This document shows positions 41 through 53,473 of a stretch of 53,473 bases of DNA, piece after piece (the first letter of the stretch is position 1; the number at the start of each line of letters is the position of its first letter). Source of the DNA: Candidatus Gastranaerophilales bacterium. Its GTDB lineage: Bacteria; Cyanobacteriota; Vampirovibrionia; Gastranaerophilales; Gastranaerophilaceae. A program made the position numbers and the translations under genes. The DNA lies in the NCBI GenBank assembly GCA_944325075.1, contig CALUYU010000007.1, positions 1 to 53,473 of the forward strand, read 5' to 3'. The notes below the pieces were generated by a model, which had not been told where the DNA came from, made no database searches, and saw only the letters and a program-made list of their open reading frames with translations.

Positions 41-123
41 AAAGGGGGGTAAATACATGGAAAAGTCAAGTATAGCAAGGCATACGGGGGGGGGGGGGTA
101 ACGAACCTCAAGGGAGACAAGGA
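41..123 (+). repeat. G13 slippage element, copy 1
   Basis: This block recurs at 53275-53358. It holds an SD-like AAAGGGGGG, a 7-base spacer, ATG at 57, ten codons, 13 consecutive G (86-98), then TAACGAACCTCAAGGGAGAC. From the G run to the end of GACAAGG the two copies are identical. Upstream they differ at scattered bases but keep reading frame and spacing. Only 40 bases precede this copy in the window, so its promoter cannot be judged. Confidence 0.85.
57..101 (+). CDS. 14-codon G-tract leader ORF (possible 5' end of the prepilin gene)
   Basis: As written, ATG 57 encodes MEKSSIARHTGGGG and stops at TAA 99-101 immediately after the 13-G run. Removing one G, or a -1 ribosomal or polymerase slip, makes the frame continue as NEPQGRQG and run without a stop into the prepilin frame that has ATG 142. 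The second copy encodes MGKSIIARYTGGGG, so the peptide is conserved despite base changes. Either the tract is a real on/off switch, or the assembled G count is wrong and this is simply the N-terminus of the downstream gene. Confidence 0.6.
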   Translation: MEKSSIARHTGGGG

Positions 124-141
124 TTTGCACCTAATGAGTCA

Positions 142-1179
142 ATGTTGGAGCCCCAAGCTACATTAACCCCATGTCATCCTGAACATACTTTTTCTTTAGC
201 ACAAAGAAAAAGTAAGCAAAAAGAAAGCGAGACCGGGTGGTTGGCAAAGCAGTTATGTCATCCTGAATTTATTTCAGGATCTAACCATCGAAACATTATA
301 CCGCTGCCTAAAAACATTAACAATATACCCTTTGCGTCTCGCACGGCGCAGCGTCATGTAAAAGGGAACTACGTTCCCCGCAAGGCAGCATTCACGTTAG
401 CCGAAGTTTTAATTACACTTACCATAATTGGCGTTGTAGCAGCAATGACCCTGCCGACTTTAATCCAAAACCAGCAGGAAAAAGAAAAGGTTGTAAGATT
501 AAAGAAAGCATACAGTGTCCTAAACAGCGCAATCCAGCGGGCAATAACCGAGGACGGGCCTATTTCCAGCTGGAGCGGTCTGGTTGCATCACAGGTGTCT
601 GAGGAAGATATGACAGATGAAGAAAAAGAAGAGGTCGTCACAGGAAGGCAGAGTTCCTGGAGCAACTTTATGTCCCATATAAAGCCATACTTGAATTTTG
701 TAAAATATTGTGAGAACTATAGTGATACAACTTGCGGCGGGGATTATACCAGATTTTCATTAGATGGTACTGATTTTGCTAATACTAGTGAACGAGCTGT
801 ATTGGCTGACGGAATAGGAATATCTTCTATTTGGATTTCAAGTCCATCCTGCAAAGCCATCTTCGGTACATCAAAACAATTGCAGAAAGTTTGCGGAGAA
901 ATCTTTATAGATATAAAACCAAATGGTAAAAACGGAAAACGAACCGGAGATACTATATTTGTGTTTTATTTAACAGAATATGGGCTGTATCCGGTAGGTA
1001 CAACAATGGAAAACGCCCGTGTCGGTGAAGCTCCTTACACATTTGAAAATGCTTGTAATATTTCAAAGCGTGGGATTCATAATGGCTATGGCTGTACGGC
1101 TTGGGTTTTACAGAATGAGAATATGGATTATAAAAAATGTTCAGACCTTAGCTGGGGAGGGAAAACTAAATGTAAATAA
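142..1179 (+). CDS. type IV pilin-like protein (prepilin N-terminal domain), repeat-derived leader
   Basis: This is a prepilin-type protein expected to be processed at the inner membrane and assembled or displayed through a type IV pilus or type II secretion-like machine. The cleavage motif KAA|FTLAEVLIT lies near residue 84, with Ala rather than Gly at -1. A hydrophobic helix follows to about residue 107 and ends AAMTLPTLIQ. The C-terminus has a Cys-containing signature, GCTAWVLQNENMDY then KCSDLSWGGK, shared with the prepilin at 14137-14901. Residues 1-83 are much longer than a normal leader and are largely translated dispersed repeats (CHPE, FISGS, SKQKES). The frame stays open upstream to base 99, so the true start may be ATG 57 by way of G-tract slippage. 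Start codon is uncertain; the prepilin assignment is firm. Confidence 0.85.
   Translation: MLEPQATLTPCHPEHTFSLAQRKSKQKESETGWLAKQLCHPEFISGSNHRNIIPLPKNINNIPFASRTAQRHVKGNYVPRKAAFTLAEVLITLTIIGVVAAMTLPTLIQNQQEKEKVVRLKKAYSVLNSAIQRAITEDGPISSWSGLVASQVSEEDMTDEEKEEVVTGRQSSWSNFMSHIKPYLNFVKYCENYSDTTCGGDYTRFSLDGTDFANTSERAVLADGIGISSIWISSPSCKAIFGTSKQLQKVCGEIFIDIKPNGKNGKRTGDTIFVFYLTEYGLYPVGTTMENARVGEAPYTFENACNISKRGIHNGYGCTAWVLQNENMDYKKCSDLSWGGKTKCK
188..228 (+). repeat. dispersed repeat (CTTTTTCTTT / AAAGAAAAAG type)
   Basis: An inverted-repeat unit, CTTTTTCTTT-loop-AAAGAAAAAG, is followed by TAAGCAAAAAGAAAGC. The stem type recurs at 52974-53008 and the tail recurs at 53185-53203. Here it is read in frame as part of the prepilin leader (HTFSLAQRKSKQKES). 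Confidence 0.6.
257..281 (+). repeat. hairpin repeat GTCATCCTGAA-loop-TTCAGGATC
   Basis: ATCCTGAA at 260-267 pairs with TTCAGGAT at 273-280. A half copy lies at 173-184, and a divided copy at 21753-21836 inside the leader of another prepilin gene. Translated in frame it gives CHPEFISGS, a peptide I recognise as the product of a widespread bacterial intergenic repeat. Confidence 0.7.
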
Positions 1180-14136: not shown

Positions 14137-14901
14137 CTAATCACAAGTTTTTTTCCCGCCCCAATCAAGGTCGCTGCATTTCAGGTAATCAAAATTTTCA
14201 TTTATTAAAACCCAGGCAGTGCAGCCTTTTCCGTAAATATCCCCTTTTCTTGCACATTTTTCTGAAAAAGAGTCAGCATCACCTTGGTATCCGGAAGGTT
14301 TTACTCCTTTAGGTGTAAGTATAAAATAAAACGCGTTTTCACCTCTGCGTATTTCTCTATTCCCGGGCAGAGTAACCAATATGTCTGCATACTTACCATA
14401 TTCTGTCAAGGAGGTTATATATCCCATGGATATTTTTGTTCCGTCTTGTAAATAAAAAGTTGATCTTGATGCTGAGGCTGTACTACCATTACCAAGAACT
14501 GTAGTGCCATTAAGAGCTAATTGTTTTCTTGTGTCACAAACTTCCCCTTTTTCACACCATTTCGCAATATTCATATATTTACCTAAAATGGCAGCAGCTT
14601 TTTCCATGCCGGAATAGTCTTCTACTATAATATTGCCATTTTCGTCGATGTTACTTTCTGTTACTTCTATCCCCCAATTATCTGGGGTTCCATATTCATT
14701 TAAAGCCATATTGTAAGCCTGAGACAATGATGAGTAGACTTTTTTTAACTGATTTATACGGACTTTTTCCTTGTATTTTTGTACCAAAGTCGGCAGGGTC
14801 ATTGCTGCTACTATACCTATAATACCAAGTGTAATAAGCACTTCTGCTAATGTAAAACCTTGTTTCCAATCGACAATTTTGGATTGTATCTCTTTGTCCA
14901 T
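14137..14901 (-). CDS. type IV pilin-like protein (prepilin N-terminal domain)
   Basis: A 254-residue prepilin with a normal short leader. MDKEIQSKIVDWKQG precedes the cleavage site G|FTLAEVLIT, and the hydrophobic helix ends AAMTLPTLVQ. The C-terminal half shares GCTAWVLINENFDY and KCSDLDWGGKK with the prepilin at 142-1179, and a CEKGEVCD pair may form a disulfide. SD GGAGGAT lies eight bases before the ATG. Unlike the other two prepilins in the window it has no repeat-derived leader, so it shows what the family looks like without that extension. Confidence 0.88.
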   Translation of the reverse strand: MDKEIQSKIVDWKQGFTLAEVLITLGIIGIVAAMTLPTLVQKYKEKVRINQLKKVYSSLSQAYNMALNEYGTPDNWGIEVTESNIDENGNIIVEDYSGMEKAAAILGKYMNIAKWCEKGEVCDTRKQLALNGTTVLGNGSTASASRSTFYLQDGTKISMGYITSLTEYGKYADILVTLPGNREIRRGENAFYFILTPKGVKPSGYQGDADSFSEKCARKGDIYGKGCTAWVLINENFDYLKCSDLDWGGKKTCD

Positions 14902-21677: not shown

Positions 21678-22634
21678 TTGAGTTGCCAGAGATACCTCCT
21701 ATATGCGTCGCTGTGTGTGACGCATATGGAAAAGGTCAATAAAAATTTCCCATGTCATCCTGAACTTGCAGCTCCTCTTGTTGCCGACGAAAAGGCGGCT
21801 TACAAGGGAGGGTGCTCGCAGAGTATTTCAGGATCTGTCCGCCGACAAAAATGTTCGACCATCTGCACTCAAAAATCTAATGTTGGAGTAGAAACCCCAA
21901 CCTACAATAATATTTTGCTGAATACTAAAGAGCGCAGCATAATATGGATGTGCCTCAGGCACCACTCGCCTCGCAGGGTTGCATTCACACTTGCAGAAGT
22001 CCTAATAACCCTGGGCATAATCGGAGTTGTTGCCGCTATGACGCTGCCGACTTTAATTGCTAAGTATCAGAAAAAAGTTGTTGCGACACATTTAAAAAAG
22101 TTTTATACTGTTATGTCTCAGGCAATAAAGCTTGCAGAAGCTGAAAACGGAGATATAAAATATTGGCCGCCGGAATGTTCAGATGATGCCTCCCAATGTT
22201 TTAGAGACTGGTATAACAAGTATTTGGATAAACATATAAAATCAATAAAAAAAGATGACTCTGATAGTCTATGGTATAAAGTTGTATTTGCGGATGGCAC
22301 AGGTTTTATGGCATATACAAATGAAACCGCCTTAACTGGTCATATTGCACATTTTACTTTTTGCATCAATTCTAAGAAATGTACAAAAAATATATTTGAT
22401 GGTCAAAATTCATTTTTGTTTAGTATAAATAATGAAGGGCGGTTTATTGCATCATTAGAAGAGTCGCAGGATGATACAAGATCCCAGCTGTTAGAGAGTT
22501 GTTCACTTGGAAACAGAGATAATCCAGATGTTTCTTCTGTCGGCAAAAGGCACGCTTGTGCCAGACTTATACAGATAGACGGTTGGGAGATTAAACCGGA
22601 TTATTCTTGGAACCAGTCAATTATTACAAAATAA
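21678..22634 (+). CDS. type IV pilin-like protein with repeat-derived leader
   Basis: The prepilin core begins at RVA|FTLAEVLIT (Ala at -1) and the helix ends AAMTLPTLIAKY. The C-terminal domain differs from the other two prepilins: it lacks the NEN-DY / WGGK signature and ends WEIKPDYSWNQS. The open frame starts at TTG 21678, but the first 100 residues are translated repeats (CHPELA, SISGS, NVGVETPTYN). ATG 21948 would give an 11-residue leader (MCLRHHSPRRV plus A), a normal prepilin leader length. No good SD precedes any candidate; CATAAT at 21938-21943 could drive a leaderless start at 21948. Start uncertain, family firm. Confidence 0.8.
   Translation: MSCQRYLLYASLCVTHMEKVNKNFPCHPELAAPLVADEKAAYKGGCSQSISGSVRRQKCSTICTQKSNVGVETPTYNNILLNTKERSIIWMCLRHHSPRRVAFTLAEVLITLGIIGVVAAMTLPTLIAKYQKKVVATHLKKFYTVMSQAIKLAEAENGDIKYWPPECSDDASQCFRDWYNKYLDKHIKSIKKDDSDSLWYKVVFADGTGFMAYTNETALTGHIAHFTFCINSKKCTKNIFDGQNSFLFSINNEGRFIASLEESQDDTRSQLLESCSLGNRDNPDVSSVGKRHACARLIQIDGWEIKPDYSWNQSIITK
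21701..21727. repeat. perfect 9-bp inverted repeat
   Basis: ATATGCGTC (21701-21709) and GACGCATAT (21719-21727) flank a nine-base loop at the very start of the long prepilin frame. No T run follows, so it is not a terminator. It could be an operator or part of a mobile repeat. Confidence 0.6.
21753..21836 (+). repeat. divided GTCATCCTGAAC ... TTTCAGGATCT repeat
   Basis: The two halves of the hairpin repeat seen intact at 257-281 are separated here by about 60 bases. Both are in frame with the prepilin leader. Confidence 0.6.
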
Positions 22635-51614: not shown

Positions 51615-52439
51615 ATGAGTGTAGAAGAAAAGTTATATTCTGACATCCCCCCAACAAAGTTGAGGAATAGAGAGGAGAAATTTAAACCGGCAAAGACAAA
51701 CAGATTTTGGCTTACTATAGCCAGTTTGTTCTTTTTTAACATGCTTCAGAACAGATTTTATGCTTTCCGTTACAAAGGAGCAGAGCATGTTATGGAAAAA
51801 GGCGTGCCGACTATTCTTTACGCCCCTCATTGTAATTGGTGGGACGGAATTGTTTTTTATAATATTACTCATAGAATTTTCCATAAAGAAATCCGTTTAA
51901 TGATAGAAGAACTTAACCGTTTCCCTCTTTTGCGCCGCGGCGGCGGTTATTCTGTTTGTAAAAAATCTCCACAGTCTGCTATGAAATCTCTTAAGTATTC
52001 TGTTGATGTTGTTGGGGATTTAAAAAATATTTTATGCATTTTCCCGCAAGGGATTATACGTCCGCCTCATTTCAGACCTATTCAATTTCAAACAGGCTTG
52101 GCTTATATTGCACAAAATTCCGTAAAAAAATACGGAAAAGTTAATCTTGTGCCGATTTCAATTGAATATTGTTTTTTAAGAGATAACCGTCCGGAAGTTC
52201 TTGTCGAATTTGGCAGAAGAATTTCCTTAACAAGAGAAAACTGTTCGTCATTGAGTCGTAAGGATTTAACCCACTTGCTTGAACGGGAAATGACTGAAGT
52301 TTGTGATAATCAATTTGCACAAATTGCAAGCGGTGACATAGAGGATTATAAAATTCTTTTTAAACAGCATTTGAAATGGTATAGAAGAATTGAACAGCGC
52401 CTGAAAAGAATTGATGTCCCACCGGTTGCTGATGTGTAA
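51615..52439 (+). CDS. PlsC-like lysophospholipid acyltransferase
   Basis: 274 residues. One hydrophobic segment (FWLTIASLFFFNMLQ, about 31-45) precedes the acyltransferase domain with the HX4D catalytic motif H72-CNWW-D77. Block III reads FPQGIIRPP where FPEGTRS is usual. An ELNRFPLLRRGGGYSV block lies between. Likely acylates a lysophospholipid or another hydroxyl acceptor at the membrane. Leaderless start. Not obviously linked to its neighbours. Confidence 0.82.
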   Translation: MSVEEKLYSDIPPTKLRNREEKFKPAKTNRFWLTIASLFFFNMLQNRFYAFRYKGAEHVMEKGVPTILYAPHCNWWDGIVFYNITHRIFHKEIRLMIEELNRFPLLRRGGGYSVCKKSPQSAMKSLKYSVDVVGDLKNILCIFPQGIIRPPHFRPIQFQTGLAYIAQNSVKKYGKVNLVPISIEYCFLRDNRPEVLVEFGRRISLTRENCSSLSRKDLTHLLEREMTEVCDNQFAQIASGDIEDYKILFKQHLKWYRRIEQRLKRIDVPPVADV

Positions 52440-52445
52440 TTTTTT

Positions 52446-52454
52446 GGGGGGGGG
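52446..52454 (+). repeat. G9 homopolymer after the acyltransferase gene
   Basis: Nine G follow a T run directly after the stop codon. It is the third long G run in this AT-rich window. No start codon or conserved flank of the G13 element is present. Confidence 0.7.
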
Positions 52455-53239: not shown

Positions 53240-53267
53240 TTGAAAAAACAGAAAAATAGTATATAAT
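53240..53267 (+). promoter_or_regulatory. promoter of G13 element copy 2
   Basis: TTGAAA (53240-53245), 16 bases, TATAAT (53262-53267), followed by the strong SD AAGGAGG at 53277-53283, seven bases before ATG 53291. Confidence 0.75.
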
Positions 53268-53274
53268 AAAAGAA

Positions 53275-53358
53275 AAAAGGAGGTAAACACATGGGAAAGT
53301 CAATAATAGCACGGTATACGGGGGGGGGGGGGTAACGAACCTCAAGGGAGACAAGGGA
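53275..53358 (+). repeat. G13 slippage element, copy 2
   Basis: Same order as copy 1 at 41-123: SD, ATG, ten codons, 13 G (53320-53332), TAACGAACCTCAAGGGAGACAAGG. Here the promoter and a perfect SD are visible. Confidence 0.88.
53291..53335 (+). CDS. 14-codon G-tract leader ORF, copy 2 (possible 5' end of a truncated prepilin gene)
   Basis: ATG 53291 encodes MGKSIIARYTGGGG and stops at TAA 53333-53335 just after the G run. With a -1 slip the frame continues as NEPQGRQGKTPKLAFFKFF and stays open to the last base of the window. In copy 1 the equivalent frame leads into a prepilin, so a similar gene probably continues past the window end. Confidence 0.6.
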   Translation: MGKSIIARYTGGGG

Positions 53359-53473
53359 AAACACCAAAATTAGCTTTCTTCAAATTTTTCACCAAATCAA
53401 AGTTTTCTGTATCAAACGAAAATAAATATTATGTTGGGGTGAAACCCCAACCTACATTGAACTGTGTGGGCCG
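53336..53473 (+). other. open -1 frame after G13 copy 2, cut by the window end
   Basis: No stop occurs in this frame to 53473. It includes a translated GTTGGGGT / ACCCCAAC repeat (53433-53451, read as VGVKPQPTLN), the same type of peptide as in the other prepilin leaders. The prepilin motif itself is not reached. Confidence 0.45.

Follow-up and report, generated by a model that had tools for sequence, protein, structure and literature searches.

Most known cases of poly-G phase variation come from pathogens, with a few loci described in commensals. In Bifidobacterium breve UCC2003, a tract of G10-G12 at bbr_0113 and bbr_1889, subject to replication slippage, splits a sortase-dependent pilin gene into two frames; OFF is the main DNA state, and the ON form makes up about 30% in mice as against about 3% in culture (PMC9187656). 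In Campylobacter, where up to 81 putative poly-G loci have been counted in one strain, 52% of tract lengths are G9 and 30% are G10 (PMC6321876), and peaked distributions of this sort are usual in poly-G phase variation. In bacterial cases of transcriptional realignment, A/T homopolymers of eight or more are conserved in an out-of-frame state and the downstream frame is under selection (PMC3711429, PMC1088944).

The DNA analysed, referred to below as the window, makes up the entire contig G000:C7 (53,473 bp) of a 2.26-Mb genome in 107 contigs; for this genome and all others compared with it the data are consensus assemblies that probably derive from metagenomes. The window has an A+T content of 64% and a G content of 19%, and only three of its G runs reach nine or more, at 86-98, 52446-52454 and 53320-53332. 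The first and third belong to copies 1 and 2 of a common 5' module, whose features are as follows:

44-49, plus strand: Shine-Dalgarno (SD)-like GGGGGG of copy 1 (consensus AGGAGG in sister copies)
57-85, plus strand: start codon (ATG, 57-59) and 29-nt head of copy 1, MEKSSIARHT
86-98, plus strand: G13 tract of copy 1 (G12, predicted ON; G13, immediate stop; G14, third frame)
99-101, plus strand: TAA in the ATG frame at G13, copy 1 (variants in a second genome, G009: TAG, GAA, AAA)
100-390, plus strand: ON-frame leader of copy 1, NEPQGRQGFAPNESML...VPRKAA, partly dispersed repeats
391-1179, plus strand: predicted mature pilin of copy 1, FTLAEVLITLTIIGVVAAMTLP..., plus stop (PF07963; model pLDDT 81)
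53240-53267, plus strand: putative promoter of copy 2, TTGAAA ... TATAAT, by consensus match
53278-53283, plus strand: SD of copy 2, AGGAGG
53291-53319, plus strand: start codon and head of copy 2, MGKSIIARYT
53320-53332, plus strand: G13 tract of copy 2, followed directly by TAA (53333-53335)
53334-53473, plus strand: ON-frame leader of copy 2 (L036), open up to the contig end

The contig end cuts copy 2 (53291-53473), so that its pilin portion falls beyond the contig. The remaining G9 run (AATTTTTTGGGGGGGGGAGGATAG) directly follows an acyltransferase gene (51615-52439), with no pilin context seen, and two prepilin-motif genes in the window (14137-14901, minus strand; 21984-22043, plus strand) have no G tract near them.

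Inspection of copy 1 bears out the architecture that the original prediction had proposed, in which an ATG leads into ten codons, 13 Gs and an in-frame TAA (57-101), and an SD-like element is indeed present upstream, albeit as GGGGGG rather than the consensus AGGAGG. The -10 box is also degenerate (GTAAAAAAAAAAG) relative to the TTGAAA-N17-TATAAT...AGGAGG consensus of the sister copies; the ATG lies 56 nt from the contig end, and the first ~45 bases come from the very edge of the contig and may be wrong. Deletion of one G in silico joins the start to the prepilin frame without a stop, as anticipated, but the joined frame is 373 aa long (MEKSSIARHTGGGGNEPQGRQGFAPNESML...) rather than 345, the latter figure corresponding to its ATG-started portion, an ORF from ATG 142. 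Addition of one G in silico gives 36 aa only, in agreement with the short frame foreseen for that change. The frame hidden behind the stop spans the tract (97/100) to position 1179. An alternative ON-frame start 5' of the tract was considered and rejected, as a TAG occupies 73-75 and no later ATG, GTG or TTG precedes the tract. Internal initiation 3' of the tract was likewise rejected as a general answer, because in several relatives no more than 10-20 codons separate the tract from FTLAE, and a start within so short a spacing would cost the leader.

The protein encoded by the hidden frame of copy 1 resembles type IV pilins and pseudopilins (PF07963, N_methyl; E 5.5e-6, 26.2 bits against a cut-off of 21.2) in its FTLAEVLITL helix with E5 present in the motif, in its cleavage position, and in the presence of a prepilin peptidase in the genome, encoded by one gene (PF06750, E 2.1e-33). 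It is unlike them in the length of the leader, which is 45-182 codons here as opposed to about 10, in the residue before the copy 1 cleavage site, which is Ala instead of Gly (KAA/FTLAE), and in a globular domain without a significant match. Ala is found at -1 in many sister copies and Gly in many relatives. Although the model of the copy 1 pilin is good (pLDDT 81), a Foldseek search with its globular domain returned the pilin 1ay2 as its best match (57 columns, E 0.69), with none at or below E 0.001. The leaders of the window copy (160-390) and of family-A loci L031, L049, L050 and L052 are built from dispersed repeats, of which one (TGTCATCCTGAA...TTTCAGGATC) reads CHPE[LF][VI]SGS and another (TGTTGGGGT..ACCCCAACCTACA) reads VGVKPQPT; these repeats keep the pilin frame, are stop-free, and resemble in-frame palindromic elements of other bacteria.

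Within the window's genome (G000), the core of the module's most numerous form, family A (GGGGGGTAACGAACCTCAAGGGAGACAAGG), occurs 69 times with three or fewer mismatches and a reversed-pattern control 0 times, a result far beyond chance. Most family-A copies share TTGAAA, about 17 nt, TATAAT, AGGAGG, ATG and M[EG]KSxIxxxT. Across the 69 copies the tract is G13 in 43, G12 in 11 and G14 in 7, with the remainder scattered and tracts at contig ends giving lower bounds on length; among the 52 that have a full upstream region, an unbroken tract and a recognised ATG, 38 are in the +1 frame, nine are ON and five are in the third frame. Two further families, B (MLKFNHSADFPD-G10-13) and C (MQNPIIARISLI-G9-12), also lie upstream of prepilins. 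In these, the G count ranges between 9 and 13 through substitution while the distance from ATG to tract end stays constant, at 47 nt in 7/9 family-B copies and 46 nt in 7/7 family-C copies by hand count.

The genome holds 150 PF07963 matches, 92 of them above or near the Pfam cut-off and the others weaker with the same FTLAE motif. A same-strand tract of G8 or longer lies within 850 nt upstream of 90 of these matches (48 family A, 42 other), as compared with one downstream and one on the opposite strand in controls, and the tracts preceding these ~90 genes run from roughly 8 to 14 Gs. The 60 prepilins with no detected tract include 17 that are cut off at contig starts. The genome appears to mix switched and unswitched pilins, on a scale that the original prediction underestimated, about 90 such genes being present. 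Since the 5' module (79% conserved over 69 nt) is far better conserved than the mature domains, which have diverged to about 34% identity with dS near saturation, these arrangements are indicative of one switch module attached to many different pilins.

Examination of the hidden frame across family A indicates that it is maintained. A prepilin motif lies within reach in 47 copies; 43 of these carry it in the NEPQGRQG frame, and that frame is stop-free from tract to motif in 41 (median 131 codons); each of the other two frames is open in 0/47, with a mean of 7.4 and 6.5 stops. The frame is intact in 26/29 copies of the G13 type, 8/9 that are ON and 7/9 in the third frame, so that intactness is independent of present tract state. 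Between paralogues, OFF/OFF pairs included, dN/dS is 0.10-0.28, with a value of 0.10 for the mature domains of copy 1 and L094, both of which are G13. These ratios indicate purifying selection on the hidden frame, and they do so for pairs of OFF copies as well. Permanently OFF genes should have decayed, and the intact hidden frames therefore argue that the frame is real; clearly decayed sister copies also exist (L067, L070, L091, L092). A downstream frame that is not conserved in relatives had been named beforehand as the observation that would speak against a switch, and conservation was found instead.

Comparison of copies and of related genomes shows that the tract itself is variable. In seven of eight copy pairs with identical 45-nt flanks, a comparison that omitted two more copies identical to L047 (all G12), tract length differs, and lengths within the G000 assembly range from 10 to 16, with both ON and OFF copies present. 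The exact family-A core was found only in G000 and G009 (MAG BRZ_DP__bin38, Candidatus Gastranaerophilales), which is of the same genus as the window genome. Among the 40 copies in G009, about 18 are in the ON frame, about 15 are longer by one base and two shorter by one. In G009 the stop often has G or A in place of its T, or reads TAG, so the stop directly behind the tract was not designed as such. Syntenic sites of the two genomes retain their tracts, and at some of these the state differs (L126/L097, L147/L087). Tract length hence changes, to judge from these comparisons, faster than its flanks, both between paralogues and relative to a related species. For copy 1, no syntenic site was found in G009; a homologue (L133/L210, 65% aa) exists, but among the loci examined none of mlaE, mlaF, the aminotransferase gene and alaS adjoins it. 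In two G009/G000 pairs (L199 vs L037, L212 vs L065) the flanks are 98-99% identical over 1.3-1.5 kb, as against 72-90% at other syntenic sites, and one such stretch stops exactly at the G-tract module with a different pilin beyond, as if the module were a recombination joint.

The central claim of the original prediction, that a G tract in front of a prepilin gene serves as a frame switch, is strongly supported by the retained frame (41/47), by purifying selection, by variable tracts between identical flanks and by syntenic tracts in a second species. We consider it probable that these tracts form a slippery-G frame switch for leader-encoded prepilins that operates, in the window's genus, mostly by heritable changes in tract length. 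Each gene would have its own putative promoter, an SD, a start, about ten codons, the tract, a leader and a pilin, in which the slippery tract, situated within the N-terminal leader, would switch the frame of a type IV prepilin-like protein and the prepilin peptidase would remove that leader. At G13 the ribosome would run straight into a stop (OFF); G12 would join the start to the prepilin (ON), and G14 would lead translation into the short third frame. DNA polymerase slippage would alter tract length between generations, so that ~90 pilin genes could toggle independently; with the modal length OFF, a cell would express a minority of its pilins and the population would be a changing mixture. 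Layout, frames, conservation, copy number and tract variation between copies and species are observed here; we infer that within a population the tract changes occur frequently and on DNA, that pili are formed by ON cells, and that the purpose is variation of the surface in the gut.

Relatives beyond the genus extend the pattern and bear on how the switch is thrown. A generic pattern of AGGAGG-ATG-(12-36 nt)-G9 is present in 50/191 genomes and 15/41 genera, with essentially no control matches, and most of the loci examined have a prepilin ORF downstream. By eye, L163 and L181 have a 5' G tract ahead of an apparent membrane acyltransferase, and L165 has one ahead of an apparent nucleotide-sugar epimerase, where the tract encodes the glycines of a nucleotide-binding loop. 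When ON/OFF state and direction (d) are called on the assumption that translation begins 5' of the tract, at the ATG linked to the SD, only 3/62 loci with tracts of at least nine are ON over G148, G184, G078, G159 and G033, two G148 start codons having been set by hand; against an expectation of one-third, the binomial p is about 6e-8, with the paralogues not being independent. The consensus state, which the original prediction did not show, is thus OFF nearly everywhere. Direction is lineage-specific, with d2 in 37/40 loci of g38 and g22, where d1 never occurs, and d1 in 18/22 loci of G148. Tract lengths are spread where tracts are long (G13), and short tracts are near-fixed, at G9 in 19/19 loci of G184 and 18/19 of G159 and at G10 in 12/12 of G033; in the g38/g22 relatives tract length does not outpace the flanks. 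Very short tracts are in frame (G7 in L235, G8 in L230). In rare cases, L241 (G184:C8:47772) and G159:C36:54053-54105, loci are in frame through an extra A or a T9 run in the head, with G9 unchanged. Loss of mismatch repair was rejected as a source of hypermutability, as MutS is found in 160/160 good genomes, and with MutS present short tracts should be fairly stable.

A default-OFF switch explains much of this pattern, since OFF would be favoured in the gut sampled and ON would be a minority state as in B. breve, but the fixed direction is more naturally read as programmed slippage; taken together, the near-uniform out-of-frame state, the fixed direction and the scarcity of G9-G10 variation in relatives appear to be more than default OFF needs. 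According to this alternative, which the original prediction also named, the out-of-frame DNA is the wild type, and RNA polymerase slippage on the G run or ribosomal frameshifting yields a low, constant amount of in-frame product at each gene, so that all pilins would be produced at a low level with the DNA unchanged. The constant total lengths of families B and C and the purifying selection on OFF genes agree with it, as do the scarcity of ON loci, the fixed direction, the fixed short tracts and the in-frame G7 and G8 tracts of the relatives. Against it, near-identical copies in the window's genus vary freely in tract length, and in G009 roughly every second locus is simply in frame. Moreover, direction varies between genera, so a single ribosomal shift cannot serve all of them; known bacterial cases use A/T runs (PMC3711429, PMC1088944); and RNA folding of the 5' module was no better than that of shuffles (z -1.5), with no stimulatory structure seen. 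On balance, we regard programmed slippage as a serious but rather unlikely account of the whole.

A second alternative combines both modes and takes in two variants in which the tract sits apart from the pilin. In family C (for example G000:C12:29346, L300; C16:6145, L305; and C5:23661, L296), the tract is in a separate small frame upstream of the pilin; one base away, that frame is 68 codons long, its TGA overlaps the pilin ATG (TTATGA), and the pilin SD (AAAGGAGG) lies inside it. Several family-C copies also have a GGCGAAA...TTTCGCC hairpin and a short T run in between. G021 similarly has a separate tract frame, then a hairpin and T run, for which z is -4.3 in one copy and -1.75 in a second, and lastly a pilin that has an SD and an ATG to itself. 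At its 32 loci (L323, L329, L335 and L341 among them) the small G11 frame, MQKxSIxRIS-GGG..., likewise stands apart, and after it come a terminator-like hairpin and the pilin gene. Read-through of the tract could act in such cases via translational coupling or by covering of a terminator. RNA-level slippage at a conserved out-of-frame tract might then give dozens of pilins a low, constant in-frame share, with the longer tracts of some genera adding heritable switching, and with family C and the G021 variant working by attenuation and translational coupling; we hold this composite to be unlikely as well, if worth keeping in view.

The remaining alternatives concern copy 1 or the assembly. Copy 1 might be a decaying member of a family that is otherwise still switched, its tract being irrelevant; its degenerate -10 box, the GGGGGG in place of AGGAGG and the existence of clearly decayed sisters are compatible with this notion, but the frame is intact over 360 codons, the mature domain appears to be under purifying selection relative to L094, and bases 1-45 are possibly wrong; decay is very improbable. 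An assembly artefact, with G12 as the real tract length and a constitutively on gene, is very improbable too: homopolymer lengths are error-prone in assemblies (PMC9187656) and several copies lie at contig ends, but the same assembly holds tracts of 10-16 in both states, heads, Gs and post-tract segments vary compensatingly, as errors would not, and the deviations in relatives go both ways, which no single bias explains.

Under the favored reading, a frame switch thrown mostly by heritable changes in tract length, about 90 of the 150 prepilin genes of a 2.26-Mb genome from an uncultured, non-photosynthetic cyanobacterial gut lineage would be under one modular switch, possibly among the largest single-family switched sets; a literature search found no prior description in this lineage. 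Automatic annotation would call most of these genes truncated or mis-start them. The system makes testable both the diversification of a gut commensal's surface and the role of G runs as drivers of programmed slippage in bacteria.

The closest described counterpart is the B. breve UCC2003 switch, which likewise belongs to a gut commensal, joins two frames by a one-base change, and has OFF as its main and ON as its minority state. It differs in governing sortase pili of a Gram-positive organism at two loci, whereas the genes here are type IV prepilin-like, number about 90, and share a 5' module with its own putative promoter, alongside a variant coupled to a small frame. Campylobacter phasomes are comparable in having coding-region G tracts with peaked lengths at many loci of surface function; there, however, the genes are mostly unrelated, and here they form a single superfamily of prepilins, joined by a few envelope genes, with longer tracts in the window's genus (G13) and a modal state that is OFF. 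Programmed transcriptional realignment shares with the present loci a conserved out-of-frame homopolymer of at least eight and a selected downstream frame, but the runs described here are of G, and in the window's genus their length is variable.
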